Of a stretch of 64,000 nt of DNA, positions 4,116-63,309 are shown in pieces. How positions within the stretch are numbered: the stretch's first letter is position 1; each line of letters starts with the position of its first letter. The position numbers and the translations under genes are program-made. Source of the DNA: Ferrimonas lipolytica (GTDB lineage: Bacteria; Pseudomonadota; Gammaproteobacteria; Enterobacterales; Shewanellaceae); NCBI RefSeq assembly GCF_012295575.1, contig NZ_CP051180.1:1178001-1242000 (forward strand). The letters are read 5' to 3'. Under the pieces are notes generated by a model. It saw only the letters and a list, made by a program, of their open reading frames with translations, had not been told where the DNA came from and did not search any database.

Positions 4116-4408
4116 GGCTGTGTACCAACTAAGTGTTGTTTTCTCCAATGCTGTTAAAACACCGGCTCGGTGAGTCCCAATACTAGGGCAAAGCACTACC
4201 GCCGTAGATATTTTGCTGCTTTGGAGCAGTTCAGCGAAGCGTTTTGGACCGCGACCTAAGGCAAGGGGGGATTGCAAAGGGGGCGGAGTGTAGTGGTCTA
4301 ATGAATACAAGAATGTGCCGTCGCCACCGCGACATTCACCCCTAAAGCACCGAAATCGATGAAGCCGAAGGCTTAAGATAAGCTTCAACAGCTAACTACG
4401 ACACAGCC
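4116..4408 (+). mobile_element. MITE-like element, copy 1 (full length)
   Basis: A 293-bp member of the dispersed repeat family. It begins GGCTGTGTACC and ends GACACAGCC. It is flanked by AATAAAAA (4108-4115) and AACAAAAA (4409-4416), a near-perfect 8-bp duplication. The right flank is the U tract (minus strand) of the terminator of the neighbouring transporter gene. Short open frames inside it are not conserved between copies and are not called as genes. Confidence 0.85.
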
Positions 4409-4442
4409 AACAAAAATGCCACTCGGATGAGCGAGCGGCATT
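4409..4442 (-). terminator. Intrinsic terminator of the POT-like transporter gene
   Basis: On the minus strand, arms 4432-4442 and 4415-4425 pair over 11 positions with one A/C mismatch, followed by TTTTTGTT. It begins 27 bp past the stop of the gene ending at 4469. MITE copy 1 starts right at the end of the U tract. Confidence 0.7.
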
Positions 4443-4468
4443 ATCTGTAGTGACTAAGCATTATGGTA

Positions 4469-5998
4469 TTAACGTTGTTGTAAACGTTGGTACCAAGAGC
4501 CATAAAGCATAATTCCGAGTGCCGATAAACTGCCAATAGCGGCAATTAGGTACCAAGCAAAGCCGATATCGTGGCTAAGATAGAGCTGCTCGGTTAAAGT
4601 AATGGCGTCGATGCCGGTAAACTCAACCAAGCGGGTGAACGCTTCACCATGGGGGATTGCGGCTACCATCTCTGCAGAGGCACCTTGCTCAGCAAACATC
4701 TGCCGAGCAAACATCTCTTTGGAAGCGTACATCTCGTAAAGCTTTGGTCCCCAGTAGCCTTCCAGCCCCCAGCCAATTCCTTGCGGCAACATAACGAAAC
4801 CAAGGTACATCGCTTTCTTTCCTTCCGGCGCGATATTGCCCATAAACTCGTTCTTCTTCGGGCTGATCATCATCTCGCCTAAACTGAACAGAGCAATAGC
4901 AAACACCATTGCCCAAGCAAAGTTGGAGGAACCAATAATAAAGAAGGCGACGATCGAGGCGACGGCACCGGCAAGCATCGCATGCATGATGCGGAACTTA
5001 GCGGTTAGCGCAGCAATCAGGAAACAGCTGGTCATAATCATACCGGCGTTTAGGTTAAGCATGCCCTCAGGCATCACCTTAGTACCAGAGTTATCAAGTC
5101 CCAACCAGAATTGGGCGAAACCGTTTTGGGTTCCTTCTGGACCAAATAGGTCACGCACAATAATGGAGGTATCGACCCATTCAGAGATATGAACCGGCAG
5201 AACATCAAATAACGCATTGAACAGGAACCAAAAGCCAGAGAACACTAGCATGTACCAAAATACGATTGGTTTTTTTAGTTCGTTAAAGGCGTCCTTCCAC
5301 AGCGCGGTTTGGACAACCTCACCAGACTTCACTTTAGCTTGGCGCTCAAGTCGTTCGGTCTTGCCGGGCTCTTTATAGGCCAGCAACATAATGAAGTTAA
5401 GCGAGATAATAGCAGCACAGGCGTAGAACACGTTTTCCCACGCGAGCTGACGCAGATGCACCGCCATCAACGGGCCAAGGAAGCCGCCAATGTTCACTGT
5501 CTGGTAAAAGATGCCCCAAGCCATGGATGCGTTTTCTTTCTTGGTTGCCAGAACCAGTGTGCCTTGGATCCCCGGTTTGAAAATACCTGTGCCGGTTGCC
5601 AGCAATATGGCGCCGGCAAGAAAGCCATAGAAAGAAGGGAAGGTGGCCATCACTAAGTAACCAGCAATCTTCAAAATGGTTGATGCGAAAATGGTCTCTT
5701 TATAGCCAACCCGATCTGAGATCCCGCCGGTAAAAACTGGCACGAAGGTTTGCAGCAATGCCCAGATCATCAAGATGATACCGAAATCACCCATGGTGAT
5801 CCCCAAACCACCTGCGGAAGTGGGCGCCTGTGCATACAGCGCGGCACTGCTCTTAATTCCGTAGTAAGCGAAGCGCTCAATTAGCTCCATACCGCCAACT
5901 AACCAAAATACGTAGCTGAGGCTGGCAATAGAGGCCCATAGTCCGAGTTGTTTTACTTCACGCAAGTCATTGTCGGCGTGCGTTGTATTCCCTGTCAT
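4469..5998 (-). CDS. POT-like MFS transporter (peptide or related solute)
   Basis: 509 residues with about 12-14 hydrophobic segments. Near the N-terminus it carries GMELIERFAYYG, the ExxERF signature of the proton-dependent oligopeptide transporter (POT/PTR) family, where it takes part in proton coupling. GGISDRVGYKETI matches the MFS loop 2-3 motif, and GTGIFKPGIQGTL matches the conserved POT segment around helix 5. It differs from classical DtpA types by a long C-terminal periplasmic stretch (residues about 415-470). Substrate is therefore uncertain: di/tripeptides are the family default. ATG at 5998 is preceded by a long gap holding the divergent CRP-controlled ABC transporter promoter. 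Confidence 0.75.
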   Translation of the reverse strand: MTGNTTHADNDLREVKQLGLWASIASLSYVFWLVGGMELIERFAYYGIKSSAALYAQAPTSAGGLGITMGDFGIILMIWALLQTFVPVFTGGISDRVGYKETIFASTILKIAGYLVMATFPSFYGFLAGAILLATGTGIFKPGIQGTLVLATKKENASMAWGIFYQTVNIGGFLGPLMAVHLRQLAWENVFYACAAIISLNFIMLLAYKEPGKTERLERQAKVKSGEVVQTALWKDAFNELKKPIVFWYMLVFSGFWFLFNALFDVLPVHISEWVDTSIIVRDLFGPEGTQNGFAQFWLGLDNSGTKVMPEGMLNLNAGMIMTSCFLIAALTAKFRIMHAMLAGAVASIVAFFIIGSSNFAWAMVFAIALFSLGEMMISPKKNEFMGNIAPEGKKAMYLGFVMLPQGIGWGLEGYWGPKLYEMYASKEMFARQMFAEQGASAEMVAAIPHGEAFTRLVEFTGIDAITLTEQLYLSHDIGFAWYLIAAIGSLSALGIMLYGSWYQRLQQR

Positions 5999-6403
5999 AG
6001 ATTCGTAACGTCATTGTTTAATTTGGCGGTAAAAATACATCAAATTGATAACTAATTACATGCGCCAGCTCGATAGTTGAACGATTAGAGAAAGCATGTT
6101 GTGCTTATTTTTTTACAAAATGTGGCATAAACGAAAAGTGTGATTCAGGCACTTGATTGCGGTAGTGGGTTTGTTGCAGATGGTGAACCAAGGTGGCTAT
6201 GGTTTGTTCTCTTGTTCGACCTCAATTTATGAACAGTCTGTTCTGTTCAAAATTTTCTAAATCATTGAAAATTCGCAGGAGTTTTTTCGCTAGTGAATGT
6301 AATATGTTCGTAATAAAACTACATTTGGTGTTTTTTTGCTCACCAGAGATTGTCGAAAGCTTGAGCGAGTTTTGAGCGCAGATTAGTTGGAGTAGCTCAA
6401 TAG
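5999..6403. other. Intergenic region between divergent transporter genes
   Basis: About 400 AT-rich bases hold the promoter region of the POT-like gene (minus) and lead to the CRP site of the BMP-type operon (plus). No reading frame with a ribosome binding site or convincing composition was found. Confidence 0.5.
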
Positions 6404-6419
6404 TGTGATGCGCATCACA
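6404..6419. promoter_or_regulatory. CRP-binding site upstream of the BMP-type ABC operon
   Basis: TGTGATGCGCATCACA is a perfect 16-bp palindrome matching TGTGA-N6-TCACA. It lies 132 bp before the first ATG at 6536. A weak promoter (TTGATT near 6447, TATATC near 6468) would put the site about 65-70 bp upstream of transcription start, compatible with class I activation. Catabolite control of the nucleoside-type transporter is inferred. Confidence 0.75.
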
Positions 6420-6535
6420 TTCGCTGGAGCTGGAAGGTTATCTCTCTTGATTGTCATTGGCTAGCGTTATATCGATGTGGGTGTGGTTCCCTACTAAAGG
6501 GAATTTAATAAGAAAATTACTACAACGGAAGATCA

Positions 6536-7543
6536 ATGATGAAAAAAGCGCTCGCTTCTACTGCTGTTGCAGTTTCACTGGCCTTGACCACATTTGCTGC
6601 TTCTGCAGCAGACTTCAAGCCTGCTGTAGCCTACGATACTGCTGGTAAACACGATAAATCTTTTAACCAAGCTGTTTACGAAAACGGTGTTACCGCTTTC
6701 AAAAAAGAGAAAGGCGTAAAGGTTAAAGAATACACCCCTTCTAACGACACTCAGCGTGAGCAGGGTTTGGAAAAGCTGGCTAAACGTGGCCACTCTCCAA
6801 TCGTAGTTGTAGGTTTTAACTACGCAGCAGCACTGAGCAAAGTTGCTCCTAAGTTCCCTGAGACCGACTTCGTAATCATCGATTCCGTTGTCGATCAGCC
6901 AAACGTTAAGTCGTTGGTATTTGCTGAGCATGAAGGCTCATTCTTGGTAGGTGCTTTGGCAGCTATGAAGTCTGAAACCAATGCAGTTGGTTTTGTCGGT
7001 GGCATGGACATCCCTCTGATCCGTAAGTTCGCTTGTGGTTACGAGCAGGGTGCTAAGTACGTTGCTAAAGACGCAAAAGTACTAGAAAACATGACCGGTT
7101 CTACCCCTGCTGCGTTTGCAGATCCAGTACGTGGTGCTGAGCTGGCTAAGTCTCAGTTCTCTCAAGGCGCTGACGTAGTATTCGCTGCTGCCGGCGGTAC
7201 TGGTAACGGTGTTTACCAAGCGGCTAAAGACGAAGGCAAATTGGCCATCGGTGTTGATTCAAACCAAAACCACCTGCACCCAGGTGTGATGCTGACCTCA
7301 ATGGTTAAGCGCGTTGGTTACACCACCTTCAAAGTATTCGAAGATTACCAAGCTGGTAACTTCAAAGCTGGTATCCAAGCGAATGGCTTAGCTGACGGCG
7401 GCATCACTTGGGCATTAGATAAGTACAACCGTGACTTGGTTTCTGCTGATCAAGAAGCAAAGGTTAACGCTATCGCAGCGAAGATCATTGCAGGCGAAAT
7501 CAAGGTTCACGACTACATGTCTGACAGCACCTGTAACTACTAA
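6536..7543 (+). CDS. BMP-family (PnrA/BmpA-like) periplasmic binding protein of an ABC transporter
   Basis: 335 residues with a signal peptide (MKKALASTAVAVSLALTTFA, cleavage after AASAA) and the BMP lipoprotein family pattern: VAYDTAGKHDKSFNQ at the mature N-terminus, VGFNYAAAL, VGALAAMKSETNAVGFVGG, and GADVVFAAAGGTGNGVYQAA. BMP proteins bind nucleosides (PnrA of Treponema is the known case), so purine nucleoside uptake is the best guess. Two ATG codons in tandem (6536, 6539) follow GGAA; the second gives the more classical signal peptide. It is the first gene of an operon with ATPase and two permeases, separated from them by a strong hairpin that probably raises its level relative to the membrane parts. 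No lipobox is visible, so it should be soluble in the periplasm. Confidence 0.88.
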   Translation: MMKKALASTAVAVSLALTTFAASAADFKPAVAYDTAGKHDKSFNQAVYENGVTAFKKEKGVKVKEYTPSNDTQREQGLEKLAKRGHSPIVVVGFNYAAALSKVAPKFPETDFVIIDSVVDQPNVKSLVFAEHEGSFLVGALAAMKSETNAVGFVGGMDIPLIRKFACGYEQGAKYVAKDAKVLENMTGSTPAAFADPVRGAELAKSQFSQGADVVFAAAGGTGNGVYQAAKDEGKLAIGVDSNQNHLHPGVMLTSMVKRVGYTTFKVFEDYQAGNFKAGIQANGLADGGITWALDKYNRDLVSADQEAKVNAIAAKIIAGEIKVHDYMSDSTCNY

Positions 7544-7572
7544 TTCGTCCTGAATTAGCGCTCTATTAAAGC

Positions 7573-7600
7573 CTCACCAAGCGATGCTTGGTGAGTCTTT
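7573..7600 (+). terminator. Attenuator-type hairpin between binding protein and ATPase genes
   Basis: CTCACCAAGC (7573-7582) pairs perfectly with GCTTGGTGAG (7586-7595) around a 3-base loop and is followed by TCTTTTG. It lies 29 bp after the binding-protein stop and before the ATPase start. This is the usual arrangement for partial termination or mRNA stabilisation, giving excess binding protein. Confidence 0.75.
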
Positions 7601-7637
7601 TGCCCCAAAAAGTGTTACCCGCATAGCGAGAAAAGCA

Positions 7638-9212
7638 ATGGCTCAAGCCTCGAACGCGCCACGTATGGCGTTGGAACTTCGCGGAATTGATAAGCGGTTT
7701 GGCGAAGTGCGTGCCAACCAAGACATCAACCTGAAAATTCCAGCCGGAACGGTTCACGGTATCATCGGTGAAAACGGTGCCGGTAAATCAACCTTGATGA
7801 ATATCATCTATGGCTTCTACGAAGCGGATAAGGGTGAGATTCTAGTTGACGAAAAATTATGTCACATCCCTAACTCCCGAGAAGCGATTGCTGCAGGCAT
7901 CGGTATGGTTCACCAACATTTTATGTTGGTTGATAACTTCACTGTGCTTGAAAACGTAGTGCTTGGTGCGGAAGAAGGGGCAATGCTAAACGTTAGCTTA
8001 CGTAAGGCTCGTAAAGAGCTGCAACGTCTGGCCGACGAATACCAGTTAACGGTTCCATTGGACGCCACAATTGAAGAGCTTCCAGTGGGTTTGCAACAGC
8101 GAGTAGAGATTCTCAAAGCACTCTACCGTGGTGCACGGGTGTTGATTCTTGATGAGCCAACCGGTGTACTAACTCCGCAAGAGACTGACGATCTATTTAA
8201 GATCTTAGACACTCTGCGTGAGCAAGGCGTAACCATCCTGCTTATCACCCATAAACTGCGCGAAATCCTTGCGGTTACAGACAATGTGTCAGTAATGCGC
8301 CAAGGCGCCATGGTGGGTCACGTTAAGACCTCAGAAACCAGCAAAGAAGAACTTGCTGAACTGATGGTAGGCCGTAAGGTTCGTCTTAAAGTTGAAAAAG
8401 AAGCAGCGACACCAAAGCAGGTGTTGATGTCCACTAAGGATCTAACCTACACCGACAGTCGTGGCGTTGATATGTTGAAAAAGGTCAACATTGAAGTGCG
8501 CGCAGGTGAGGTTGTGGGCATTGCTGGTGTATCCGGTAATGGTCAGTCCGAATTGATGGAAGTGCTGTCTGGTATTTTGGTACCAACTAAAGGTCAGGTG
8601 CAGATTGGTGAACACATCATCACTGCTGAAAACCCAAGCGATCCAAAACACGTTCGTGATATGGGCGTCGGCCATGTACCAGAAGATCGTTTGGCGATGG
8701 GGCTTATTAAGAGCTTTAGCGCCGAAGAGTCAGCGATGCTTGGCTTCCACGAGCAAGAGCAGTACACCGGCAAGATCTTCAATAAACCACAAGCTATCAC
8801 TGAAAAGTGTGCCGCGCTGATGGAAGAGTGGGACGTGCGCCCACGTAATCCAAAACTGCGTAGCTCGCTGTTCTCCGGTGGTAACCAGCAAAAGCTGATT
8901 ATTGCCCGTGAAGTTGACCAAGATCCTGATGTATTGATGATTGGCCAGCCAACTCGTGGTGTTGATATCGGTGCAATTGAGTACATTCACAAACGCATTA
9001 TCGACATGCGTGACCAAAACAAAGGGGTTTTACTGGTTTCAGTAGAGCTTGATGAAATCTTAGCGCTATCTGATCGCATCGTCGTGATGTTCGACGGCAA
9101 TATCGTTGGTGAAGTACCAGCGGATAAAGCCAATGAGCGCATCCTCGGTATGATGATGGCGAACGTAATGCCAGATGAATTACTACAGCAAAACGCAGGA
9201 GAAAACCTGTGA
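7638..9212 (+). CDS. ABC transporter ATP-binding protein (dual nucleotide-binding domains, NupA/YufO-like)
   Basis: 524 residues with two ABC domains in one chain, as in BMP/nucleoside and sugar importers. Domain 1 has Walker A GENGAGKST, and Walker B VLILDEPTG with an atypical signature region (LPVGLQQRVEIL). Domain 2 has degenerate Walker A GVSGNGQSE, signature FSGGNQQK and VLMIGQPTRGVD in the Walker B position, where the usual Glu is replaced, so domain 2 is probably the weaker ATPase. ATG at 7638 is chosen: an upstream ATG at 7584 lies inside the attenuator hairpin and would add a non-conserved tail. The stop overlaps the next gene's GTG. It powers uptake through the two permeases downstream. 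Confidence 0.88.
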   Translation: MAQASNAPRMALELRGIDKRFGEVRANQDINLKIPAGTVHGIIGENGAGKSTLMNIIYGFYEADKGEILVDEKLCHIPNSREAIAAGIGMVHQHFMLVDNFTVLENVVLGAEEGAMLNVSLRKARKELQRLADEYQLTVPLDATIEELPVGLQQRVEILKALYRGARVLILDEPTGVLTPQETDDLFKILDTLREQGVTILLITHKLREILAVTDNVSVMRQGAMVGHVKTSETSKEELAELMVGRKVRLKVEKEAATPKQVLMSTKDLTYTDSRGVDMLKKVNIEVRAGEVVGIAGVSGNGQSELMEVLSGILVPTKGQVQIGEHIITAENPSDPKHVRDMGVGHVPEDRLAMGLIKSFSAEESAMLGFHEQEQYTGKIFNKPQAITEKCAALMEEWDVRPRNPKLRSSLFSGGNQQKLIIAREVDQDPDVLMIGQPTRGVDIGAIEYIHKRIIDMRDQNKGVLLVSVELDEILALSDRIVVMFDGNIVGEVPADKANERILGMMMANVMPDELLQQNAGENL

Positions 9213-10321
9213 ACAATAATAACTTACCAACTTGGATTAACGTCCTAGTATTGCCGTTACTAAACCTTATTTTAGCGTTCGCTATCGCCGGTTTGGTATT
9301 TATCGCCATCGACGTAGATCCCGTTGAAGCCGCTCGATTAATCATTGAAGGCGCTCTGGGTTACGAAGAGGGGATTGGCTACACCCTGTATTACGCCACT
9401 AACTTTATTTTTACCGGTTTGGCGGTTGCCATCGCGTTCTCCGCTGGTTTGTTCAACATTGGCGGGGAAGGTCAGGCGTACATTGGTGGTTTAGGCACTG
9501 GTTTGGTTTGTTTGGCACTTGATGCCAGCATGCCGTTCTGGATTCTGTTCCCACTGTCGATGCTTGGTGGCATGCTGTTTGGTGCGCTGTGGGCATTTAT
9601 TCCGGCTTACTTGCAAGCATATCGTGGTAGCCACGTGGTAATTACCACCATTATGTTTAACTTCATCGCCTCTTCGTTGATGGTGTACTTGATGGTAAAC
9701 GTATTGAAGCCAGAAGGTCAGATGTCTGCGGTTTCACGTTTGCTTGAAGAAAGTGCGCGTTTACCGTTCATTCATGACATGTTTGGTTGGGTTGGCATTG
9801 AGTTAGAGCAAAGCCCTCTTAACGCCAGCTTCTTGATTGCCTTGGCTGCATTGGTATTCGTTTGGGCATTGTTGTGGCGTACCCGCTGGGGCTTTGCCAT
9901 TCGAGCGTTGGGTGCTAGCCCAAGTGCCACTAACTACGGCGGCATCAACCCGAAACGCCTAACCGTAATCGTAATGCTTATCTCTGGCGCTATGGCTGGT
10001 TTGTTGGGCATGAACGAAATCACCGGTTACAGTCACCAGTTACGTTTGGACTTCGTTGCCGGTTACGGATTCACCGGTATTGCGGTAGCGCTTATCGGCC
10101 GTGGTCACCCAATCGGTATCCTGTTCGCTTCAATCCTATTTGGGGTGCTGTTCCAAGGTGGTAACGAGTTAGCGTTTGAATACGACAACATCGACCGTGA
10201 AATGGTTGTGGTGGTTCAGGCGCTGGTTGTTCTGTTCTCCGGTGCTTTGGCGATGATGCTGGTAAATCCAGTAACCAAGATTTACCAAGCCGTTTCTAGC
10301 CGCCAAGCGAAGGAGGCCTAA
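9209..10321 (+). CDS. ABC transporter permease (NupB/YufP-like)
   Basis: 370 residues of the BPD_transp_2 family with about 9-10 membrane segments. The conserved glycine-rich region is visible as GLFNIGGEGQAYIGG (residues about 90-105) and ALGASPSATNYGGINPKRLTVIVMLISG (residues 232-260). The GTG start at 9209 overlaps the ATPase stop, indicating translational coupling. With the following permease it forms the inner-membrane channel of the BMP-type importer. No unusual features. Confidence 0.86.
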   Translation: MNNNNLPTWINVLVLPLLNLILAFAIAGLVFIAIDVDPVEAARLIIEGALGYEEGIGYTLYYATNFIFTGLAVAIAFSAGLFNIGGEGQAYIGGLGTGLVCLALDASMPFWILFPLSMLGGMLFGALWAFIPAYLQAYRGSHVVITTIMFNFIASSLMVYLMVNVLKPEGQMSAVSRLLEESARLPFIHDMFGWVGIELEQSPLNASFLIALAALVFVWALLWRTRWGFAIRALGASPSATNYGGINPKRLTVIVMLISGAMAGLLGMNEITGYSHQLRLDFVAGYGFTGIAVALIGRGHPIGILFASILFGVLFQGGNELAFEYDNIDREMVVVVQALVVLFSGALAMMLVNPVTKIYQAVSSRQAKEA

Positions 10322-13423: not shown

Positions 13424-13664
13424 GGCTATGTACCAACTAAGTATTGTTCTTTCCAATGCTGTTTGTAGTGGTCAAGAAAAAGTAGCACCGGCTGGGCGAG
13501 TGTTGATACAAAGGGTAAAGCACTACCGCCGTTGATCTTCTGCCGCATTGGAGCAGTTCAGCAAAGCGTTTGGACTGCGACCTAAGGCAACGGGGATTTT
13601 AACGGGGACGAAGCTCCCCCCTAATGCATACTAGAATGTGCCGTCGCCACCGTGACATAACCCT
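13424..13664 (+). mobile_element. MITE-like element, copy 2 (3' end degraded)
   Basis: Begins GGCTATGTACC and follows the family for about 240 bp, then loses similarity near the normal GCGACAT segment. It carries about 20 extra bases after GCTGTT (near 13458-13478) absent from other copies. It abuts the thioredoxin-like pseudogene. Confidence 0.75.
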
Positions 13665-15400: not shown

Positions 15401-15535
15401 GGCTGTGTACCAACTAAGTGTTGTTCTTTCCAAGGCTGTTAAAGCACCGGCTAGGCGAGTTGCGATTCAAGGGCAAAGCACTACCGTCGTTGTTCTTCTG
15501 CCGCATTGGAGTAGTTCAGCAAAGCGTTTGGGCTG
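15401..15535 (+). mobile_element. MITE-like element, copy 3 (left half only)
   Basis: Starts GGCTGTGTACC and follows the family for about 135 bp up to the AAAGCGTTTGG region, then stops matching. No right end or duplication is present, so this is a truncated fossil. Confidence 0.8.
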
Positions 15536-28126: not shown

Positions 28127-28555
28127 GTGAAGCAATCGTGCCACACTTTTAAAAACCGTTACGGCGAACAATGGCTAAATACCCTTGTTACCAGCCGCGG
28201 TATAACACGGTTAATGGCACCTCATAGCCAATTATTGGATGGCTCTCGATCGTGGGATTTACAGTTATGTTGGGAGGTCTTGGCATCGGCGGAAGTCATT
28301 GCCGCATGTTATAGCCATAACCACCAGCGTATTCCTGCAAGCGCGCAGCGCTGGTTAAACCGGCGTCAAGGACTATACGCCCGTCGCTGTAAGATCTCGG
28401 CGGAGCAAGCGAGACTAGCATTTAATGCTGCGTTGAAGGTAATTGAACACCCTCAGATGAAACAGTGGTGTTGTTGCAATGCCTGCGGCCAGACATGGCA
28501 GCGTAGCCAGCGTGAATTATTGTCGATGCTTAGCAGCACCGAAGTAGTGCGTTAG
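28127..28555 (+). CDS. Orphan basic protein with C-terminal cysteine cluster
   Basis: 142 residues, GTG start after AGGAG with 6-base spacing. The C-terminus holds QWCCCNACGQTWQRS, reminiscent of half a zinc ribbon (C-x2-C followed by an aromatic residue), and another Cys near the start. The middle is helical and basic (SAQRWLNRRQGLYARRCKISAEQ). No family was recognised. It lies 85 bp after the MaoC-like gene and ends beside a MITE. Possibly a small nucleic-acid binding or metal-binding protein; this is inference only. Confidence 0.55.
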   Translation: MKQSCHTFKNRYGEQWLNTLVTSRGITRLMAPHSQLLDGSRSWDLQLCWEVLASAEVIAACYSHNHQRIPASAQRWLNRRQGLYARRCKISAEQARLAFNAALKVIEHPQMKQWCCCNACGQTWQRSQRELLSMLSSTEVVR

Positions 28556-28564: not shown

Positions 28565-28848
28565 GGCGGTGTCGTCGTTAGCTGTGGAAGTTTACCTTAA
28601 GCCTTCGGCTCTACCGGTTGCAGTACTCTTAAGAGGTTATGTCGCGGTGGCGACGGCACATTGTTGTATGCATTAGGGGGGCGCTTCGCCCCCTTTGCAA
28701 TCGTCCCTTGCCTTAGGTCGCAGTCGAAAACGCTTCGCTGGACTGTTCCAATGCGACAGAAGATCAATAGCGGTGGTGCTTTCCCCTTGTACCAAAACTG
28801 GTCTAGCCACCAGCATTGGAAAGAACAACACTTAGTTGCTACACCGCC
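28565..28848 (-). mobile_element. MITE-like element, copy 4 (full length)
   Basis: 284 bp in the reverse orientation. The ends are GGCGGTGT and ACACCGCC, both changed at the same mirrored position from the family GGCTGTGT/ACACAGCC. Flanks are TAATAAAA and TAAAAAAG, a decayed duplication inside the A tract of the bidirectional terminator next door. Confidence 0.82.
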
Positions 28849-28849: not shown

Positions 28850-28885
28850 AAAAAAGCGCGGACTCATTATCGAGTCCGCGTTTTT
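28850..28885. terminator. Bidirectional intrinsic terminator
   Basis: CGCGGACTC (28857-28865) pairs with GAGTCCGCG (28872-28880), with an A run before and T run after. It can stop maeA (minus) and the orphan gene or MITE read-through (plus). Confidence 0.88.
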
Positions 28886-38538: not shown

Positions 38539-38809
38539 GACTGTGTACCAATTAAGTGTTGTTCTTTCCAATGCTGTTAAAGCACCGGCTAGGCGAGTGT
38601 TGGTACATGGGAAAAGCACTACCGCTGTTGATCTTCTGCCGCATTGGAGCACTCCAGCGAAGCGTTTTGGATTGCGACCTAAGGTAAGGGGGATTCCAAA
38701 GGAGGCGAAGCTCCCCCTAATGCATACAAGAATGTGCCGTCGCCTAACAGCACCGAAATCGGTACAGCCGAAGGCTGATATAAACCTCAATACTTAACTA
38801 CACACAGCC
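38539..38809 (+). mobile_element. MITE-like element, copy 5
   Basis: 271 bp. The first base pair of the end is altered (GACTGTGT). Flanks are TTATTTTG (38531-38538) and TTATTTTA (38810-38817), an 8-bp duplication with one change. It lacks the ACCGCGACAT segment and a few following bases found in other full copies. Confidence 0.85.
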
Positions 38810-40587: not shown

Positions 40588-40781
40588 GGCTGTGGTAATG
40601 GTTGTTAAGCCGAGCAGTCCAGCGGAGCGTTTTGGACTGCGACCTAAGGCAAAGGGGGCGGAGCTCCCCCTAATGTATCCAAGAATGTGTCGTCGCCACC
40701 GCGACATCCTCACCTAAAAGCACCGCAATCGGTGAAGCCGAAAGCTTAAGATAAACTTCAGCAGCTAACTACGACATAGCC
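40588..40781 (+). mobile_element. MITE-like element, copy 6 (internally deleted)
   Basis: 194 bp: a short left end (GGCTGTGG) joined to the family from the GAGCAGTCCAGCGAAGCG-like region through to the right end GACATAGCC. About 100 bp of the left half are missing. No clear duplication. Confidence 0.78.
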
Positions 40782-41473: not shown

Positions 41474-41852
41474 AATGCTGTTCCTGTGGCGTTAAACTGT
41501 TGATACTTGGTTGTCGAACCAGTTGATGATGGTTGCATCGAACGTAGCGGCACTCGTGCTAAGCGTGATCGCAAGGGGACTGTTGCATGTTATTTTCATT
41601 GTTACTACTACTAGTTGAAATGGCGGCCACAACGCTAACACCCGTTGATTTGAAACGGCTATCTTTAGATTTACATACTAGTACGAAGTCATTGATAAAT
41701 AAAAATATTGTTTATTATCAGTAATTAACTTGGCCAACGCTCTCACGGCAGCTAACTGCTTTGGGTGGTTAGTCGTTTGCTTTGAGCAAGAGTAACTGGC
41801 AAGGGTATAAGCCCAATACCATCAATACCATCAATACCATCGTAATAAAAAG
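41474..41852. other. Intergenic region with a short tandem repeat
   Basis: About 380 AT-rich bases upstream of the GNAT gene. The only structure seen is three perfect copies of AATACCATC at 41816-41842, immediately before the target duplication of MITE copy 7. Confidence 0.5.
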
Positions 41853-42144
41853 GCTGTGTACCAACTAAGTGTTGTTGTTTCCAATGTTGTTAAAGCACCG
41901 GCTAGGTGAGTGTTGATACAAAGGGAAAGCACTACCGTCGTTGATCTGCAGCTGCATTGGAGCAGTGCAGCGAAGCGCTTTGGACTGCGACCTAAGGCAA
42001 AGGGGGATTCCAAAGCGGGCGAAGCTCCCCGCTAATGCATACAAGAATGTGCCGTCGCCACCGCGACATAGTCTCCTAAAAGCATCGAAATCGATGAAGC
42101 CGAAAGCTTTAAGATAAACTTCAACAGCTAACTACGACACAGCC
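41853..42144 (+). mobile_element. MITE-like element, copy 7 (full length, perfect duplication)
   Basis: 292 bp from GGCTGTGTACC to GACACAGCC. It is bounded by identical 8-bp AATAAAAA at 41845-41852 and 42145-42152. The right duplication is the U tract of the minus-strand RND pump terminator. This is the clearest copy for defining the element. Confidence 0.92.
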
Positions 42145-42173
42145 AATAAAAAGGGCGCTACCGAGTAGCGCCC
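42145..42173 (-). terminator. Intrinsic terminator of the second RND pump
   Basis: GGGCGCTA (42153-42160) pairs perfectly with TAGCGCCC (42166-42173) around CCGAG. On the minus strand it ends in TTTTTATT, which is also the MITE target duplication. Confidence 0.88.
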
Positions 42174-42205
42174 TGTAATGGGTGTTGCCATTTGAACAGG
42201 AAAGG

Positions 42206-46724: not shown

Positions 46725-47015
46725 GGCTGTGTCGCAGTTAGCTGTTGAAGCTTATCTTAAGCCTTCGACTTCACCGATTGCGGTGCTTTTAGAGGAGGAT
46801 GTCGCGGTGGCGACGGCACATTCTTGTATGCATTAGGGGGAGCTTCGCCCCCTTTGGAATCCTCCTTGCCTTAGGTCGCAGTCCAAAGCGCTTCGCTGAA
46901 CTGCTCCAATGCGGCAGAAGATCAATAGCGGTAGTGCGTTACCCTTGGTATCGCGACTCGCCTAGTCAGTGCTTTAACAGCATTGGAAAGAGCAACAGTT
47001 AATTGGTACACAGCC
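46725..47015 (-). mobile_element. MITE-like element, copy 8 (full length, perfect duplication)
   Basis: 291 bp in reverse orientation, flanked by identical CAAATATT at 46717-46724 and 47016-47023. It is not near a terminator, so the target choice is AT-rich 8-mers rather than hairpins as such. Confidence 0.92.
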
Positions 47016-48296: not shown

Positions 48297-48401
48297 GGTT
48301 GTGTCACAGTTAAGTGTTGAGGTTTATATCAAGCCTTCGGCTCTACCGATTGCGGTGCTTTATCAGCATTGGAAAGAACAACACTTAGTTGGTACACAGC
48401 C
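48297..48401 (-). mobile_element. MITE-like element, copy 9 (105-bp deletion derivative)
   Basis: Both ends are present (GGTTGTGT...ACACAGCC) but only 105 bp remain. The join lies in GGTGCTTT, an 8-mer found twice in full-length reverse-orientation copies, so the loss is a deletion between direct repeats. Flanks are TTTACTTT (48289-48296) and TCTACTTT (48402-48409). Confidence 0.88.
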
Positions 48402-56362: not shown

Positions 56363-58063
56363 ATGAAGTTACGATTCTCTTTTGCCACCGTTCGTCCGGT
56401 CGGCCACTACGCCAAGCTGTGTAACCAATTTCTGCAGCATCCGCATGTTAAAGCCATTTATGCCGACGATAAGGGTTACTTTATCGAAGCGGAAGGCGAG
56501 GTTGCGGAACTGGAACCTTTAGCGGATCTGCTCGCTTCGACCTTTCCATTGTCCTGTTGGGTAACTGCAACCAACACCGTTGTAATTGAAGAGTTCACTG
56601 GCGAGGCAAGGCCGTTGCCGGTGGCACTCACGCCGGTAGCCTATTGTCGCCATTGCCAAGATAAGCAAGCGGACGATTGCAGTCACTGTGGTACCAAGGC
56701 CGATGGTTTTGTTGATGTGCACGGTTTATTGGAAACGTTGTTGGAGTTTGGCCAGGTAAGCTACGACAATCGCAATGGCCGCCGCTCGTTAACGTTACTT
56801 AACAACTTGGATAAGCACACGAGTAGCCTGATGTTTTGCGATCCACAAGCGCTAAATAGTGCGCTTTACATCGATAACTCCGGTGTGTTGATGCTCTCAA
56901 GCCAAGAAAAGCCGCAACTGCGCTTACAACCGCGGCCAGAGTTTACTGAGCAACATCAATTGGCGCGTCCGCTGTACAACTGCCATTTAGCCGATGATCG
57001 GATCTCGTTGGCGTTGGCTGCGATGTTGGCGCAACAGGGGATAGTTGCCGTTGGCTCGGACAGCGACTATCGACCATTACTTATTTCTCAATGGATCGAT
57101 GGCCCAGCAGCAATGCAGGGCGATCAGGAACTGAAGCCGTTACCAGTGCGAGAACCGGTACAGCATCGAGCCATCGTCGGCGAATTTGAAGCACGCTATG
57201 ACGATGGCCATGCCTACCTTAGCCGCACTGCATTAAGCCAAGCAGTTGATCCGCAGTTAGCTGCGCATTACGCGCTGGAAGGCTTGCAACAACAGCAACG
57301 TTTTAGTGATTCAACCGCGGTGCTGTACCTCAGCCGTCATCATCAGTCAGGTCTGATCTACAAAAATGCCAATGGTGAGCGCGAGTGGCTGATGCGTTTA
57401 CCTTATGCCGATAACAATCCCGCTGATCTGTTAACTAAGTTGGTCGAAACCAGCGATACCGCTGAGCGGTTGTTGACGCGTTATCAACACCAGCACGGCG
57501 ATTGGCTGGCCCAGTTAACCGGCACGAATCACCGTCGCGTACGCGGCAACCTATCAGGCATTATGGCGATGGTGGCATGGCTGCTTGAGTTAGACTGCAG
57601 TAACGATGCGGAGCTAGCGGCGGAGCAACTACTGGCGACCGCGTTAGGACATGAACAGCTGGTGTCACCGCGCTTGGATTACAAACTTGAAATCGATGAA
57701 GAGGGCATTGTGGTTAACTGGCTGCCAGTACTGCAAGCTTGTATGAGCTACCGCTTGGCGTCACCGGATACGCCACAAGGCATCGCGTTTGGGGTTATCG
57801 ACTCCTTTGCAGATTTCGTCGGCAACTGGATTGAACAGTTTGATAAAGATATCGGTCTCAACACTATTGTGCTGGCTGGTGATGAATTTGATAACCCCAT
57901 TTTGCTGCAACAGATCCGTTTGCGCTTGGGTCGCAACGTAACGCTGAAGCTGCCACAGCCGCTCGATTTGGCTGGCAATAATCTCGCGTTAGGGGCCCTG
58001 TTTGTAAGTGCCAATAAGATCGGCACAGCGCCGTCCTCTGCGCGAATTGCGGAGGAGGCGTAG
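56363..58063 (+). CDS. HydE-like HypF-related hydrogenase accessory protein
   Basis: 566 residues, position and features as in HydE of epsilonproteobacterial hydABCDE operons. The C-terminal part resembles the Kae1-like half of HypF: NTIVLAGDEFDNPILLQQIRLRLG and DLAGNNLALGALFVSANK correspond to VVLSGGVMQNQLL and ANDGGLSLGQAAVA of the true HypF downstream. Two Cys pairs (about 95/98 and 106/109, CRHC and CSHC) recall one HypF zinc finger, but the acylphosphatase, YrdC domains and HHHAH motif are missing. It therefore probably does not synthesise carbamoyl adducts, but may act as a dedicated chaperone. Exact role not shown. Confidence 0.72.
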   Translation: MKLRFSFATVRPVGHYAKLCNQFLQHPHVKAIYADDKGYFIEAEGEVAELEPLADLLASTFPLSCWVTATNTVVIEEFTGEARPLPVALTPVAYCRHCQDKQADDCSHCGTKADGFVDVHGLLETLLEFGQVSYDNRNGRRSLTLLNNLDKHTSSLMFCDPQALNSALYIDNSGVLMLSSQEKPQLRLQPRPEFTEQHQLARPLYNCHLADDRISLALAAMLAQQGIVAVGSDSDYRPLLISQWIDGPAAMQGDQELKPLPVREPVQHRAIVGEFEARYDDGHAYLSRTALSQAVDPQLAAHYALEGLQQQQRFSDSTAVLYLSRHHQSGLIYKNANGEREWLMRLPYADNNPADLLTKLVETSDTAERLLTRYQHQHGDWLAQLTGTNHRRVRGNLSGIMAMVAWLLELDCSNDAELAAEQLLATALGHEQLVSPRLDYKLEIDEEGIVVNWLPVLQACMSYRLASPDTPQGIAFGVIDSFADFVGNWIEQFDKDIGLNTIVLAGDEFDNPILLQQIRLRLGRNVTLKLPQPLDLAGNNLALGALFVSANKIGTAPSSARIAEEA

Positions 58064-58066
58064 CCG

Positions 58067-58309
58067 ATGTGTTTTGCTATCCCGTCAAAGATCATTGAGC
58101 TCGATAATGAGCAAGATATCGCCACTATCGATACCATGGGCAAGATCCGTCATGTTAGCGTGCATACCATTTTGGAGCCATTGGCGTTGGGGGACTACAT
58201 CTTGATCAATAACGGTTTTGCGTTAAATAAGATGGAAAAGGAAGCGGCTCTAAGTAGCTTAGAGTTGTACCAAGAGATCGTAACCAAAATGGAACAAGGG
58301 GAGATCTAA
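58067..58309 (+). CDS. hypC: HypC/HybG-family hydrogenase assembly chaperone
   Basis: 80 residues starting MCFAIPSKIIELD, with the essential Cys2 that becomes N-terminal after Met removal. The fold continues with IDTMGKIRHVSVHTILEPLALGDYILINNGFAL. HypC carries the Fe(CN)2CO unit with HypD and delivers it to the large subunit. It lies 3 bp after the HydE-like gene. hypD, its obligate partner, is not in the window. Confidence 0.94.
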   Translation: MCFAIPSKIIELDNEQDIATIDTMGKIRHVSVHTILEPLALGDYILINNGFALNKMEKEAALSSLELYQEIVTKMEQGEI

Positions 58310-58310
58310 T

Positions 58311-60626
58311 ATGATCCCGGCGTCTAGTCATAATGGCTATGTCATACGGGTTCGTGGTCAGGTTCAAGGGGTGGGGTTTCGCCCCTTTATTTGGCAACTG
58401 GCCAACGAACTCGCCCTGTTAGGTGAAGTGCTTAACGACAGCGAGGGGGTATTAATCAAGCTACTTGAACCGGTTGATGCCGTCGCTTTTGTTTCATTAA
58501 TGGTTGAGCGTCTGCCACCTTTGGCACGAATCGATAGCAGCGAGATTAACCCATACCTGTTCACCGTTGTTCCGACCGAATTTGTCATTACCCAATCCCA
58601 AGGGGGGCAGGTCAACACTCGTATTGCCCCCGATACCGCGACCTGCACAGCTTGTATCGCTGAGATCCGCAACCCCGCCGATCGTCGTGTTGGCTACCCA
58701 TTTACCAACTGCACTCACTGTGGCCCGCGCTTTTCAATTATTAAAGCCGTACCTTATGACCGCCCTTACACCTCAATGGGGGCATTTCCGCTGTGCCCTG
58801 AATGCCAGCAAGAGTATGACCATCCGGCTGACAGGCGTTTTCATGCCCAGCCCAATGCTTGTGCCACCTGTGGTCCGAAACTGACCCTAGTTAATAACCA
58901 CGGTGAGGTAGTTGCGAGTGAGCAACTTGCCTTGGCACAAACCATTGCCGCACTCGAAGCTGGCCAAATCGTGGCGATAAAGGGATTGGGTGGCTATCAC
59001 CTGGCGGTTGATGCCACCAATCAAGCTGCGGTGGAACGATTACGTCGTAATAAGCATCGGCCAACCAAACCATTTGCGCTGATGGCACGGGACCTAACCG
59101 TTATTGCAAACTACGCGATGGTAACAGCGCTAGAACAGCAACAACTACAAAGTGGTGCTGCGCCGATTGTGCTGCTAAAACGCAACAACATTGACAATCT
59201 AGCGGCGAATGTGGCGCCATCGATGCATCGTGTTGGCATGATGTTGCCATCAAATCCGCTCCAGCATCTTATCTTTAGCGGATTTGAACGACCGCTGGTA
59301 ATGACCTCTGGCAATGCCTCAGGCAAACCACCGGTAATCGATGATGCCCAAGCGGTGGTAGAGCTAGGCACTATTGCCGATCTGCTGCTGCAACACAATC
59401 GAGCCATCGTTAACCGTGTCGACGATTCCATCGTTCGGGTAGATGACAACCAGCCAATAGTGCTGCGCCGAGCGCGCGGATTTGTACCAACGCCAATCGG
59501 GCTGCCGGCCGGTTTTGAGCAAGCAGACAATATTTTGGCCTATGGCGCAGATCTAAAAAATACCTTCTGTTACCTCAAACGAGGACAGGCGTTGTTGTCG
59601 CCGCACTTAGGTGATCTGTCTGACTTGCAGTTGCGCGACGCGTATCAACACAATCTGTCGCTGTTTGCGAAACTGTTTGATGTAAAGCCGACGCTATATA
59701 GCTGCGATCCTCATCCGAGCTATCACAGTTTTGCTATCGCCAAGCAACAGTCGAAAATAACGGCAGTCGGTCATCATCATGCTCATATGGCGGCATGTAT
59801 GGTCGATAACCAGATAGCACTGGGTAGTAAACCGATGTTGGCCTTAGTTTTGGACGGACTAGGGTGGGGTGGTAACGACACTGAACACCAGCTTTGGGGC
59901 GGCGAATTGCTGTATGGCGATTACACTAAGGTGACTCGGCTTGATGGCATTGCGCCGATGGCCTTGCTTGGTGGTGAACTTGCTGCCCAACAGCCTTGGC
60001 GTAACTTATTGGTTCAATTAGAAAGTAACGTTAGTAACTGGCAAAGCATTGACCTGCCAGTGCTGCAACGTTTGCAGCAAAAACCGCTGGCGCTATTACG
60101 TAAGGGGCTGCAAGCAGGAATAAACAGTCCTAAAGCATCCAGTGCCGGACGCTTGTTCGATGCAGCGGCGGCGTTGTTAACTGACAAGTTTGAATCGATA
60201 ACTTTTGAAGGCGAAGCCGCGATGTCACTGGAATCACTCGCGTGGCAGGCGGTCGATAATCAACCACATTTGCCGTTAATTGTTGAAACAGATCACATTG
60301 AGCTAACACCGATATGGTCAATGTTGCTGACTGAGATCTGTAACGGCGTTCCAGCTAGCCAAGTTGCTCTATTGTTTCACCAGCAGCTTGCACTGTGCTT
60401 ACTTGGCGCAGTAGCAACTCAGGCTAAACGATTACACGTGAGTACCGTGGTTTTATCTGGCGGTGTGATGCAAAACCAGCTACTGCACAGTTTGTTGGTT
60501 GACGGATTACGCCGATTGGAACTGGAGCCATTGTCTCATCATCAGATACCCGCCAACGATGGTGGGTTATCTCTGGGCCAGGCCGCAGTGGCTTGGGCTC
60601 AGCATCAACAAGGAGGAATGGCATGA
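58311..60626 (+). CDS. hypF: Carbamoyltransferase HypF
   Basis: 771 residues; makes the thiocarbamate precursor of the cyanide ligands. Domains: acylphosphatase (VIRVRGQVQGVGFRPFIWQLA, residues 10-95), two zinc fingers (CTACIAEI with CTHCGPRFS; CPECQQEYD with CATCGPKLT), YrdC-like domain (IVAIKGLGGYHLAVDATN; KHRPTKPFALM) and Kae1-like domain with VGHHHAHMAACM and VLSGGVMQNQLLHS. Length is normal. ATG 58311 follows GGGGAGA. Confidence 0.96.
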   Translation: MIPASSHNGYVIRVRGQVQGVGFRPFIWQLANELALLGEVLNDSEGVLIKLLEPVDAVAFVSLMVERLPPLARIDSSEINPYLFTVVPTEFVITQSQGGQVNTRIAPDTATCTACIAEIRNPADRRVGYPFTNCTHCGPRFSIIKAVPYDRPYTSMGAFPLCPECQQEYDHPADRRFHAQPNACATCGPKLTLVNNHGEVVASEQLALAQTIAALEAGQIVAIKGLGGYHLAVDATNQAAVERLRRNKHRPTKPFALMARDLTVIANYAMVTALEQQQLQSGAAPIVLLKRNNIDNLAANVAPSMHRVGMMLPSNPLQHLIFSGFERPLVMTSGNASGKPPVIDDAQAVVELGTIADLLLQHNRAIVNRVDDSIVRVDDNQPIVLRRARGFVPTPIGLPAGFEQADNILAYGADLKNTFCYLKRGQALLSPHLGDLSDLQLRDAYQHNLSLFAKLFDVKPTLYSCDPHPSYHSFAIAKQQSKITAVGHHHAHMAACMVDNQIALGSKPMLALVLDGLGWGGNDTEHQLWGGELLYGDYTKVTRLDGIAPMALLGGELAAQQPWRNLLVQLESNVSNWQSIDLPVLQRLQQKPLALLRKGLQAGINSPKASSAGRLFDAAAALLTDKFESITFEGEAAMSLESLAWQAVDNQPHLPLIVETDHIELTPIWSMLLTEICNGVPASQVALLFHQQLALCLLGAVATQAKRLHVSTVVLSGGVMQNQLLHSLLVDGLRRLELEPLSHHQIPANDGGLSLGQAAVAWAQHQQGGMA

Positions 60627-61564
60627 CACCATCCGTGACACTACCACGCGCTTTTGTTCAACTACGTGTAGAGCAAGGCCGTATCGCAGAATGCCACCCT
60701 CAAATTGAACTGCCGAACGTAGCAGCATTGTTAGATGGGATGGATTTCGAGCAGGTAAACGCTCGATTAAAGTTAATTTACAGCCAATGTGCTGAAGCCC
60801 AGCGCTGGGCTGCAGTATCGTTACTTGAGGTGGACGAGCCGGTTGCTCCTTCAACTCAAGCCGCTCGAGCCCAAGCGTTATGGCTCGAATGGGTCAATGA
60901 GCATAGCTGGCAAATGTGGCGCAGTGCTCATCACATCCTGCCACACAGCGACGAACGCATGGATCTACTTAATCAGTGGCGCCAAGAGCTTGCGTCACTG
61001 CGCAGTGAAATGGACAGCAAGCGGTTCCAACCTTACGCCGTGGTAGAGCCTATCAGCATTCCCGATCTAGCCGATTGGCGTGACCAGTGGTTGAAGCTGG
61101 TGTATGAGCCGTTGCTAGAAGAGATTGCTAAACACGATTGGGAAAAGCGCTTCCACACCGAAACCGTCAACATCAAAGAGCTTGAGTCTGGTCCTGCTCA
61201 CCGCTTGCACATGGGCGAAGTCTCCCTTGGTGACCGCTTTGAAGCGCTATGGGTTGAATGGTGGCACGCTGCGGCTTGGGCTACTCACCCTGATGAGGTA
61301 GCGTCGCCACTGCACGAGCCAGGTGTTGTTGCAGCGGCACGGGGTAATCTGTGTCACCGCTGTCAGTGGGTTGATGGACTTGCGGGTTTCTACTCAATCG
61401 ATATCCCAACCGTTGCCACCCTTGAGAGTGTGAGTCGCTCCTTGATTGGGCAAGAGGTGGTTGATAGTCACGATTGGCGTCGTGGTCTGACTGTATGGCT
61501 GCAATCGCACGCCCCCTGTGTCGAAATTGAGGTTGAGTACTTAGAAGGGCTCGACGATGCATGA
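60623..61564 (+). CDS. HupK/HoxV-like hydrogenase accessory protein (large-subunit relative)
   Basis: 313 residues, ATG 60623 after AGGAGG, overlapping the hypF stop by 4 bp. The N-terminal region (PRAFVQLRVEQGRIAECHPQ; MDFEQVNARLKLIYSQCAEAQ) resembles the start of [NiFe] large subunits around the L1 motif with RxCxxC reduced to a single Cys in YSQCAEAQ, as in HupK/HoxV scaffold proteins. The C-terminal part has GNLCHRCQWVDG in place of DPCxxCxxH. HupK-like proteins are thought to accept the metal cofactor during assembly. The assignment rests on pattern and context; a hydrogenase-operon orphan is the alternative. Confidence 0.55.
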   Translation: MTPSVTLPRAFVQLRVEQGRIAECHPQIELPNVAALLDGMDFEQVNARLKLIYSQCAEAQRWAAVSLLEVDEPVAPSTQAARAQALWLEWVNEHSWQMWRSAHHILPHSDERMDLLNQWRQELASLRSEMDSKRFQPYAVVEPISIPDLADWRDQWLKLVYEPLLEEIAKHDWEKRFHTETVNIKELESGPAHRLHMGEVSLGDRFEALWVEWWHAAAWATHPDEVASPLHEPGVVAAARGNLCHRCQWVDGLAGFYSIDIPTVATLESVSRSLIGQEVVDSHDWRRGLTVWLQSHAPCVEIEVEYLEGLDDA

Positions 61565-61895
61565 GATGTCTCTTGCTGAGGGGATAATGCAAATTGTCGA
61601 AACCCAAAGCAAAGGCCACGGAAATAAGGTCACCAAGGTTATCTTAAGCCTTGGTGAACTTGCCGGAGTTGAAAAAGAGGCACTGGAGTTTGGCTTTGAG
61701 GTGGTGTCGAACGGCACCATCGCACATGGCGCAATTCTGGAATACCACCCAGTGTCCGGTAGTGCCTTTTGTTTCAATTGCTGTGCTCAAGTGCCATTAA
61801 GTAAACAGGGAAACCCTTGCCCCCGCTGCGATGGTTACCAATTAACGGTAATCGACGGTACGCAAATGCAAGTGAAATCGATGGAGTTAGAATAG
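61557..61895 (+). CDS. hypA: Nickel metallochaperone HypA
   Basis: 112 residues starting MHEMSLAEGIMQIV, with His2 as nickel ligand. The zinc site is made by CFNC and CPRC, separated by 12 residues. ILSLGELAGVEKEALEFGFEVVS is typical of the family. It hands nickel to the hydrogenase with HypB. Its start overlaps the previous gene by 8 bp. Confidence 0.96.
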   Translation: MHEMSLAEGIMQIVETQSKGHGNKVTKVILSLGELAGVEKEALEFGFEVVSNGTIAHGAILEYHPVSGSAFCFNCCAQVPLSKQGNPCPRCDGYQLTVIDGTQMQVKSMELE

Positions 61896-62966
61896 ATGTG
61901 TACAGTATGCGGTTGCGCAGAAGGCGAAACCCGAGTTGAAGGTGAACATGGCCATCATCACCATGATGAACACCACAGCCACGATCACCATGACCATGGC
62001 CACCAACACGGCCATAGTCATCATAACCATGCGCACCAACATCAGAGCCAGCACAGCAATGATGTCGAAAGCCAACCAGTAGCGATTCATCACCACTATC
62101 ATCACAGTGGCGATGTGCACCACCATATTCATTATCATGTTGCTGCGGGTTCTTCAGAGCAGCCACATGGGCACAGTCATGCGAGCGATCACGCTCATCA
62201 GCACCACCATGGCGAAGTAAAGCAACAATTTATTGAAACCTTTGAACCAACTCAAACCAATGACGATCTGCATTACGGCAACGGCCCTGCACACGCACAT
62301 GCGCCGGGAATGTCGCAACATCGTATGGTCCAGATTGAGCAAGATATTCTAGGCAAAAATAACGATATTGCCGATCACAATCGTGCCCACTTTGTACGTG
62401 ACAATGTGTTTGTAATGAACCTCGTTTCAAGCCCCGGCTCTGGTAAAACCACCACACTCACTGAAACCTTGAAGTTACTGAAAGACTCAACTGAGATGGC
62501 CGTAATTGAGGGCGATCAAGAAACCAGTAACGACGCGGAACGTATTCGTGCAACGGGCGTTAAGGCGATTCAGGTCAACACCGGCAAAGGCTGTCACTTG
62601 GATGCAGCGATGATCCATAAGGCATACCATCAGCTAGAGATGCCAGCCGGTGGCGTGCTGTTTATTGAGAACGTTGGCAACTTGGTTTGTCCTGCCGCCT
62701 TTGATTTAGGTGAGGCTTGTAAGGTCGCCATTTTGTCGGTTACTGAAGGTGAAGACAAACCACTGAAATACCCGGAGATGTTTGCTGCTTCAGAGCTAAT
62801 GCTAATAAACAAGATCGATCTACTGCCACACCTCAATTTCGATCTTCCTGCTTGCATCGCCAATGCGCGCAAGGTTAATCCATCAATTGAGGTAATTTGT
62901 TTATCTGCAACCAGCGGTGAAGGCATGGATTTGTGGTTAGAGTGGATTGCCAAACGCGCCAAATAA
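61896..62966 (+). CDS. hypB: Nickel-inserting GTPase HypB with very long His-rich domain
   Basis: 356 residues. The N-terminal high-affinity nickel motif is MCTVCGC (CxxCGC form with initial Met-Cys). Residues about 18-140 contain around 40 His in His/Asp/Gly runs, a nickel store as in nickelin-type HypB but longer than in E. coli. The GTPase core follows: [11 protein letters not shown] (Walker A), [31 protein letters not shown], and NKIDLLPHL. Directly follows hypA without a gap and ends the operon; a terminator lies 19 bp after the stop. Confidence 0.96.
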
Positions 62967-62984
62967 GATCGCTGTATTGCTATC

Positions 62985-63016
62985 AAGCCGTTGACGTCAG
63001 TCAGCGGCTTTTTTTG
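62985..63016 (+). terminator. Intrinsic terminator of the hydrogenase operon
   Basis: AAGCCGTTGAC (62985-62995) pairs with GTCAGCGGCTT (63000-63010) with one wobble, then TTTTT. MITE copy 10 begins one base after the T tract. Confidence 0.88.
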
Positions 63017-63309
63017 GGCTGTGTCGTAGTTAGCTGTTGAAGTTTATCTTAAGCCTTCGGCTTCACCGATTTCGGTGCTTTTAGGAGACGACGTCGCGGT
63101 AGCGACGGCACATTCTTGTATGCATTAGGGGGAGCTTCGCCCGTTTGGAATCCCCCTTACCTTAGGTCGCAGTCCAAAGCGCTTCGCTGAACTGCTCCAA
63201 TGCGGCAGAAGATCAACGAAGGCAGTGCTTAACCCTTGGTATCGCAACTCGCCTAGCTGGTGCTTTAACTGTATTAGAAAGAGCAACAACACTTAATTGG
63301 TACACAGCC
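63017..63309 (-). mobile_element. MITE-like element, copy 10 (full length)
   Basis: 293 bp in reverse orientation from GGCTGTGTCG to TACACAGCC. It sits immediately after the hydrogenase terminator. Flanks TTTTTTTG and CTTTTTGT are similar but shifted, so the duplication is only probable. Confidence 0.88.

Follow-up and report, generated by a model that had tools for sequence, protein, structure and literature searches.

Gene-less repeats that usually lie between genes and can reach hundreds of copies include the Correia and ERIC families, with 711 ERIC copies reported in Photorhabdus luminescens (PMC10969869). An IS1595-derived family of miniature inverted-repeat transposable elements (MITEs) in Haloquadratum walsbyi, with ISHwa6 as its partner, consists of 7 copies of 165 bp with 25-bp inverted repeats and 8-bp direct repeats (PMC3852290, Table 4), and ISApl4, an insertion sequence (IS) in the IS1016 subgroup of IS1595, is 712 bp long with GGGGCTGT ends (PMC12561309). 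Insertion into hairpins is known from IS1272/TnSha1, for which 5 of 7 sequenced sites were confirmed transcription terminators (PMC4923244). Here we describe a MITE family of the marine bacterium Ferrimonas lipolytica that was first seen as ten related repeats in a stretch of 64,000 nucleotides (hereafter the window; G000:C1:1178001-1242000), part of a genome of 4,133,133 bp in a single contig. Terminators are also used as safe sites by Tn7, at the glmS terminator, and by group IIC introns, which insert after terminators; these differ from the Ferrimonas MITE in their enzymes and mechanisms, and Tn7 uses one specific site.

The Ferrimonas MITE is short (~290 bp) and gene-less, with 23-bp imperfect terminal repeats starting GGCTGTGT. 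We consider it very probable that it is an IS1595-derived element that was moved in trans, favoured the T-tracts of terminators and spread in one burst before decaying. An IS1595-family transposase would have moved it in trans into AT octamers with G/C flanks, often the T-tract at the foot of a terminator stem. Because the T-tract would be duplicated beside an untouched stem, the stem would keep a T-tract, so termination should survive and genes should be spared; after the burst, the transposase presumably died and the copies decayed in place.

IS1595 elements such as ISApl4 (PMC12561309) resemble this system in transposase family, GG-starting inverted repeats, AT-rich 8-bp duplications and mostly non-coding sites, while the Ferrimonas parent differs in its length (~1,023 bp), its 315-aa transposase and its GGCTGTGT ends, and the available part of the ISApl4 account makes no mention of terminator targeting. 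The H. walsbyi MITE (PMC3852290) likewise has an IS1595 parent and 8-bp duplications, but is archaeal, shorter and present in 7 copies versus ~270 in Ferrimonas. Unlike Correia and ERIC repeats (PMC10969869), the Ferrimonas MITE has an identifiable parent and favours terminator T-tracts. IS1272/TnSha1 shares the insertion at terminator hairpins but enters the stem bluntly, with partial deletion and no duplication (PMC4923244), whereas the Ferrimonas insertions leave the stem whole and duplicate the 8-bp T-tract beside it. Both a MITE descended from IS1595 (the archaeal case, PMC3852290) and insertion into terminator hairpins by IS1272 (PMC4923244) are therefore already known from these sources; duplication of a terminator T-tract by an IS1595 element is unreported in the open-access literature searched, in which no title or abstract start was found on IS1595 terminator targeting or on a Ferrimonas MITE.

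Insertion sites in the host genome

A first-pass annotation of the window had listed ten related copies, six on the plus and four on the minus strand, and BLAST with copy 7 matched all ten places in those orientations, with only the start of copy 7 shifting one base earlier, to 41852. Its reading of the terminal repeats as inverted at 16 of 23 end positions agrees with our direct reading of the consensus ends, while its density of ~1 copy per 6 kb applies within the window and not genome-wide, where the figure is ~1 per 15 kb. Genome-wide pattern searches put the family at about 270 copies: a 21-bp core with ≤3 mismatches matched 270 times (reversed-pattern control, 0), the left end GGCTGTGTACCAA with ≤1 mismatch 245 times (control, 5), and the 23-bp end pattern with ≤1 mismatch 475 times (control, 0). 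With truncated copies counted as full, the MITEs add up to about 78 kb, 1.9% of the genome. Within the window, the left end with ≤2 mismatches matched 14 times, 9 of them at the listed copies, compared to 1.5 ± 1.25 matches in shuffles.

From 120 deduplicated matches, 90 full-length copies were obtained from the window, 30 search-returned loci and 60 stretches around exact left ends. The 8-bp flanks of these copies (target-site duplications, TSDs) agreed at 8/8 positions in 32 copies, 7/8 in 24, 6/8 in 12, 5/8 in 5 and ≤4/8 in 17. Agreement was thus at least 7/8 in 56 of the 90 copies, while shifted controls reached 7/8 in 0.2% of cases and 8/8 never, and the alternative TSD lengths of 7 and 9 bp gave only 7 and 1 exact matches, respectively.

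We reconstructed the empty sites of the 68 copies with a TSD of at least 6/8 and scored a predicted Rho-independent terminator where a hairpin (net score ≥5.5, ≥3 G-C pairs, loop ≤10, gap ≤3 nt) adjoined an octamer with ≥4 T (or A). The duplicated octamer was often the T-tract, or its A-tract mirror, of such a terminator and lay at the stem foot: a predicted terminator adjoined 36 of the 68 sites, with a stem-to-TSD gap of 0 in 34 of these 36 (ties being assigned to the smaller gap). All controls were drawn from the same loci as the sites. Composition-matched positions carried terminators in 183 of 2,648 cases (4.7 per 68), identical octamers anywhere predicted 7.5 against 36/67 observed, and intergenic positions with the same A and T counts likewise predicted 7.5 against 36/68. 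Intergenic identical octamers gave 8.0 expected against 31/48 observed, and matching the G/C content of the five flanking bases per side as well gave 8.2 against 35/64. An independent scanner run over 20 kb returned, as its first three terminator-like sites, those beside copies 4 and 7. Statistically, the insertions thus show a strong preference for the T-tract of predicted intrinsic terminators, with the duplication starting at the stem foot. The target is also an AT octamer bordered by G/C: at non-terminator sites, G/C makes up 62-81% of the three bases left of the octamer and 56-84% of the three right of it. In this sample, which plus copies dominate, the MITEs showed no clear preference in how they are oriented towards the terminator (R+ 16, L+ 13, L- 4, R- 3).

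Only 11 of the 68 empty sites lay inside open reading frames (ORFs) of at least 100 codons, which cover 73% of the bases in the examined loci when any frame is counted, spurious ORFs included. Coding insertions thus appear to have been avoided or purged, a pattern that fits targeting and purging alike.

Several points weigh against terminator targeting as the full account. In the scan, 32 of the 68 sites had no terminator, and the terminator share does not rise with TSD quality (15/32 at 8/8, 11/24 at 7/8 and 10/12 at 6/8). Sampling was biased towards copies with an exact left end and towards those resembling copy 7, the 22 copies with a TSD below 6/8 were left out, and a few of the 68 sites, being next to other MITE copies, are non-independent. 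The scanner was rewritten after the sites had been seen, since the stems drawn by its first version swallowed the T-tract; that version scored 31/68 sites against 12.3% of 1,055 controls, so enrichment was found with both versions. The IS1595 relic of the host genome (see below) is not at a terminator. Finally, purifying selection against insertions elsewhere could make part of the enrichment.

Terminator sites in other genomes

The sister species G010 carries 39 core matches and 64 end matches. Among 27 loci inspected there, 16 had both ends: eleven elements of 490-619 bp and others of 350, 264, 291, 389 and 275 bp, with perfect duplications, in the register used, in 9 of the 16. The eleven long elements share their ends and right part with the host family, and they look younger, as their median pairwise identity is 95.7%; the right part common to the two families aligns at ~64-70% over longer alignments. 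Predicted terminators adjoined 13 of the 16 elements, or 10 of 13 when only elements with a TSD of at least 6/8 are counted, and in the control test 12/14 were observed compared to 2.6 (A/T-matched) or 4.2 (flank-matched) expected. The full-length IS of G011, whose frame is split in two of five copies, was at a terminator in 5/5 cases, all with perfect duplications and a gap of 0, against 0.1-0.5 expected. The four copies of the F. futtsuensis IS lie at contig ends and two were testable; one site was above threshold, and the other, which at a score of 5 falls slightly short of it, reads as a terminator by eye.

Beyond Ferrimonas, 19 elements were tested, namely those whose ends could be defined: nine among 16 betaproteobacterial-type loci and ten among 30 loci of the order. 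A relaxed end search of 27 further IS1595 loci found no ends. Six of the nine betaproteobacterial-type elements adjoin terminators, all six in one Telluria genome, where the IS was at terminators in 6/6 cases versus 0.7-1.3 expected. At the level of the order, 4 of 10 elements with ends adjoin terminators, a count without a control. Speaking against a general rule, the other betaproteobacterial IS1595 elements were at terminators in 0/3 cases, and 6 of the 10 order-level elements were not at terminators, including all three that measure 708-717 bp and have GGGGCTGT ends. In a further Ferrimonas genome, G012, we noted two elements of 427 and 435 bp with IS1595-type ends (L177 and L178), the first adjoining a terminator-like hairpin and the second, again on the opposing side, not doing so.

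Terminator recognition may therefore reach beyond Ferrimonas, given the Telluria and order-level counts, but the other betaproteobacterial elements do not follow it. We advance only tentatively, at somewhat less than even chances, the broader proposal that a subgroup of IS1595 transposases recognises intrinsic terminators, either through the DNA structure of the stem or through an RNA polymerase that has paused at the T-tract, and preserves termination by duplicating this tract, a safe haven that would let MITEs reach hundreds of copies.

The explanation that survives best beside terminator targeting is a preference only for AT-rich octamers with G/C neighbours, which terminators merely happen to resemble. 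The non-terminator sites do carry the same motif of G/C beside the octamer, and octamers without terminators host some IS1595 elements (L116, L120, L127, L195, L202, L210, L211, L213 and L215). However, the controls matched for flanks and A/T content leave the excess in the host genome in place, and the flank-matched expectations are likewise exceeded in G010 (12/14 vs 4.2), G011 (5/5 vs 0.5) and Telluria (6/6 vs 1.3), so we judge this explanation unlikely. Somewhat less likely still is near-random insertion into AT-rich DNA followed by selective removal of copies away from terminators. The scarcity of sites in ORFs is what such purging would leave, but the enrichment stays against intergenic-only controls (31/48 vs 8.0), and the younger-looking sets (G010 13/16, G011 5/5) show it no less strongly than the old set does (36/68), whereas gradual purging should produce the reverse, with the reservation that the species differ.

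Age and parent of the family

Identity among the 90 copies has a median of 89.8% to the consensus and 85.7% between pairs, the best pair reaching 96.4%. The numbers of copies with 0, 1, 2 and 3 TSD mismatches (32, 24, 12 and 5) lie close to Poisson expectations of 30.8, 26.6, 11.5 and 3.3, and a single rate of ~5.4% per site per copy fits the 73 copies with a TSD of at least 5/8, which argues for one old burst; the fit omits 17 of the 90 copies, and this counts against it. We infer one main wave of expansion, dating back about 5% substitutions per site, after which the copies decayed in place. Three observations, the decay of the TSDs, the divergence of the copies and the lack of an intact transposase among the matches in the host, together suggest a burst followed by extinction of the transposase.

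It is very improbable that the family is a static intergenic repeat passed on vertically, or a structured RNA, rather than a transposon. In its favour, the consensus folds at -106.6 compared to -82.0 (standard deviation, 4.5) for mononucleotide shuffles, and the right part is shared with G010. However, the 8-bp duplications and an empty site contradict it. Copy 4 sits between the malic enzyme gene and the gene at 28127-28555, and in G010 the same gene pair retains an intact terminator-like AAAAAGCGCGGGCCTTAGCCCGCGCTTTTTT without the insert, which is likewise absent from G009; this close comparison covers the copy-4 site only. Across the other genomes of the genus, 13 fumarase-region loci were compared and contained no MITE match (E ≤ 0.01). 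The first-pass annotation had proposed a non-autonomous transposon and had named the lack of empty sites and of duplications at other genomic copies as the signs of a static repeat; both a clean empty site and such duplications were seen.

The distribution of the family also argues against a static repeat. In a copy-7 search of 97 genomes (E ≤ 0.001, with ≤7 candidates scored per genome), only the host, G010 (nine partial matches, 69-86% identity) and G007 (one 37-bp match) responded, and 11 of the 13 other Ferrimonas genomes gave no match. As for a structured RNA, we reject it since there was little compensatory change, with double changes near expectation in 11 of 13 helices, and no Rfam match in the window at gathering thresholds; subfamily inheritance can explain the two exceptional helices (28 vs 11.5 and 9 vs 3.3 double changes). 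The former of these corresponds to MITE consensus positions 231-244 (CACCG..CGGTG). Spread on plasmids or phages was also set aside, as the MITE was not found in either collection, from which records very near the window may have been left out.

Two unusual arrangements of the MITE occur elsewhere in the host genome. At G000:C1:909390-910299 (L219), three MITEs lie head to tail, with the octamer AAATAAAA at both inner junctions and TTTTTGTT common to the two outer flanks. At G000:C1:1003300-1005200 (L218), a tandem array of eight overlapping matches to the MITE interior, without good terminal repeats, apparently arose between short internal direct repeats AAAGCACCG, as a MITE-born satellite.

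An IS with the same terminal repeats and a transposase, which the first-pass annotation had suggested looking for, came from a search of the genus with the IS1595 transposase domain. Intact 1,023-bp elements are present in F. futtsuensis and a congener, with GGCTGTGT...TGTTG ends as in the MITE. The F. futtsuensis IS has the ends GGCTGTGTCTTATGTAACTGTTG and GGCTGTGTTTTAGTTAGCTGTTG, is flanked by 8-bp AT-rich repeats (CTTTTTTG/CAAAAAAG) and encodes a 315-aa IS1595 transposase, which scores 185.4 bits against NF033547 (cut-off 75) and 42.9 bits against PF12762 (cut-off 27) and is matched by zinc-binding domain models; the transposase of the congener occurs in records of F. futtsuensis, F. kyonanensis and F. 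senticii. Duplications of the parent IS are also 8 bp long, being perfect in 5/5 cases in G011 and 7/8 at the host relic, a 1,029-bp element (3637558-3638586) with 9 in-frame stops and the duplication TATTAAAA/TATTAAAG. Identity between the right end of the MITE and the IS end is 85% over 39 aligned columns, and against the host relic it is 77% over 53 columns, so the homology reaches beyond the 23-bp repeat. A search of the host with the F. futtsuensis transposase found no intact IS1595 element, only the relic and a 439-bp derivative, and G010 contains an IS1595 fragment that is 85% identical over residues 1-117. Taken together, the shared ends, 8-bp duplications, right-end homology, high copy number, host relics and intact congener IS indicate an IS1595 origin for the MITE, which, within the scope of these searches, appears at present to be an orphan in its host. 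The 439-bp derivative (L217, G000:C1:3351056-3351494) lacks positions ~248-830, is 92-96% identical to the relic and is the sort of intermediate that can give rise to MITEs.

An ISL3-family origin, as the first-pass annotation had proposed, is hardly credible: GG starts and 8-bp AT-rich duplications do occur in ISL3 elements too, but the element with the matching ends and 8-bp duplications encodes an IS1595-family transposase, and the models matching it were IS1595, IS1, zinc-binding and helix-turn-helix only, with no ISL3 model among them, in an analysis that included no separate search of the genome for ISL3 transposases.

Copies in the window and biological meaning

Seven of the ten copies in the window retain both ends (copies 1, 4, 5, 7, 8, 9 and 10), and re-reading their flanks bore out the duplications first reported, perfect for copies 7 and 8 and 7/8 for copies 1, 5 and 9. 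Copy 1 (4116..4408, plus strand) is full length, with the TSD AATAAAAA/AACAAAAA (7/8), and its right TSD adjoins a terminator-like hairpin on its A-tract side (4417..4440; scan site 1182116, class R). Copy 4 (28565..28848, minus strand; TSD TAATAAAA/TAAAAAAG, 6/8), the copy whose terminator between the same genes is empty in G010, adjoins a bidirectional terminator-like hairpin (28857..28880), and the TSD of copy 7 (41852..42144, plus strand; AATAAAAA, 8/8) adjoins another (42152..42174), both found by the main and the independent scan. Copy 5 (38539..38809, plus strand; TSD TTATTTTG/TTATTTTA, 7/8) has a scored hairpin on its left. Copy 10 (63017..63309, minus strand) is full length with an imperfect TSD (5/8), which places it outside the 68-site test; a stem-loop and T-tract lie directly to its left (62987..63016), as read by eye from the flank. 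At copy 8 (46725..47015, minus strand; TSD CAAATATT, 8/8), no terminator was scored.

Copy 9 (48297..48401, minus strand; TSD TTTACTTT/TCTACTTT, 7/8) is an internally deleted element of 105 bp in which consensus positions 1-49 are joined to 228-292 and both ends are kept. The remaining copies, all on the plus strand, are truncated: copy 2 (13424..13664) is without its right end, copy 3 (15401..15535) consists of the left part only and also lacks the right end, and copy 6 (40588..40781) has lost most of its left half. An antisense ORF of 137 aa overlaps copy 5, and the other nine places are clear of ORFs of at least 100 aa. The absence of a shared open frame, noted in the first-pass annotation, was seen again, as no frame of at least 60 aa was open in more than 26 of 58 near-full-length copies.

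The Ferrimonas family links a high-copy bacterial MITE to a parent and to a simple target rule, and this rule could explain how a MITE spreads with little damage. If the transposase does read terminators, it would provide a portable system for studying the sensing of DNA hairpins or of paused polymerase by a DDE transposase, and the landing sites of such IS1595 elements in other genomes would be predictable. Many transcript 3' ends in this genome are in effect natural experiments, in which terminators with and without a downstream insert can be compared.

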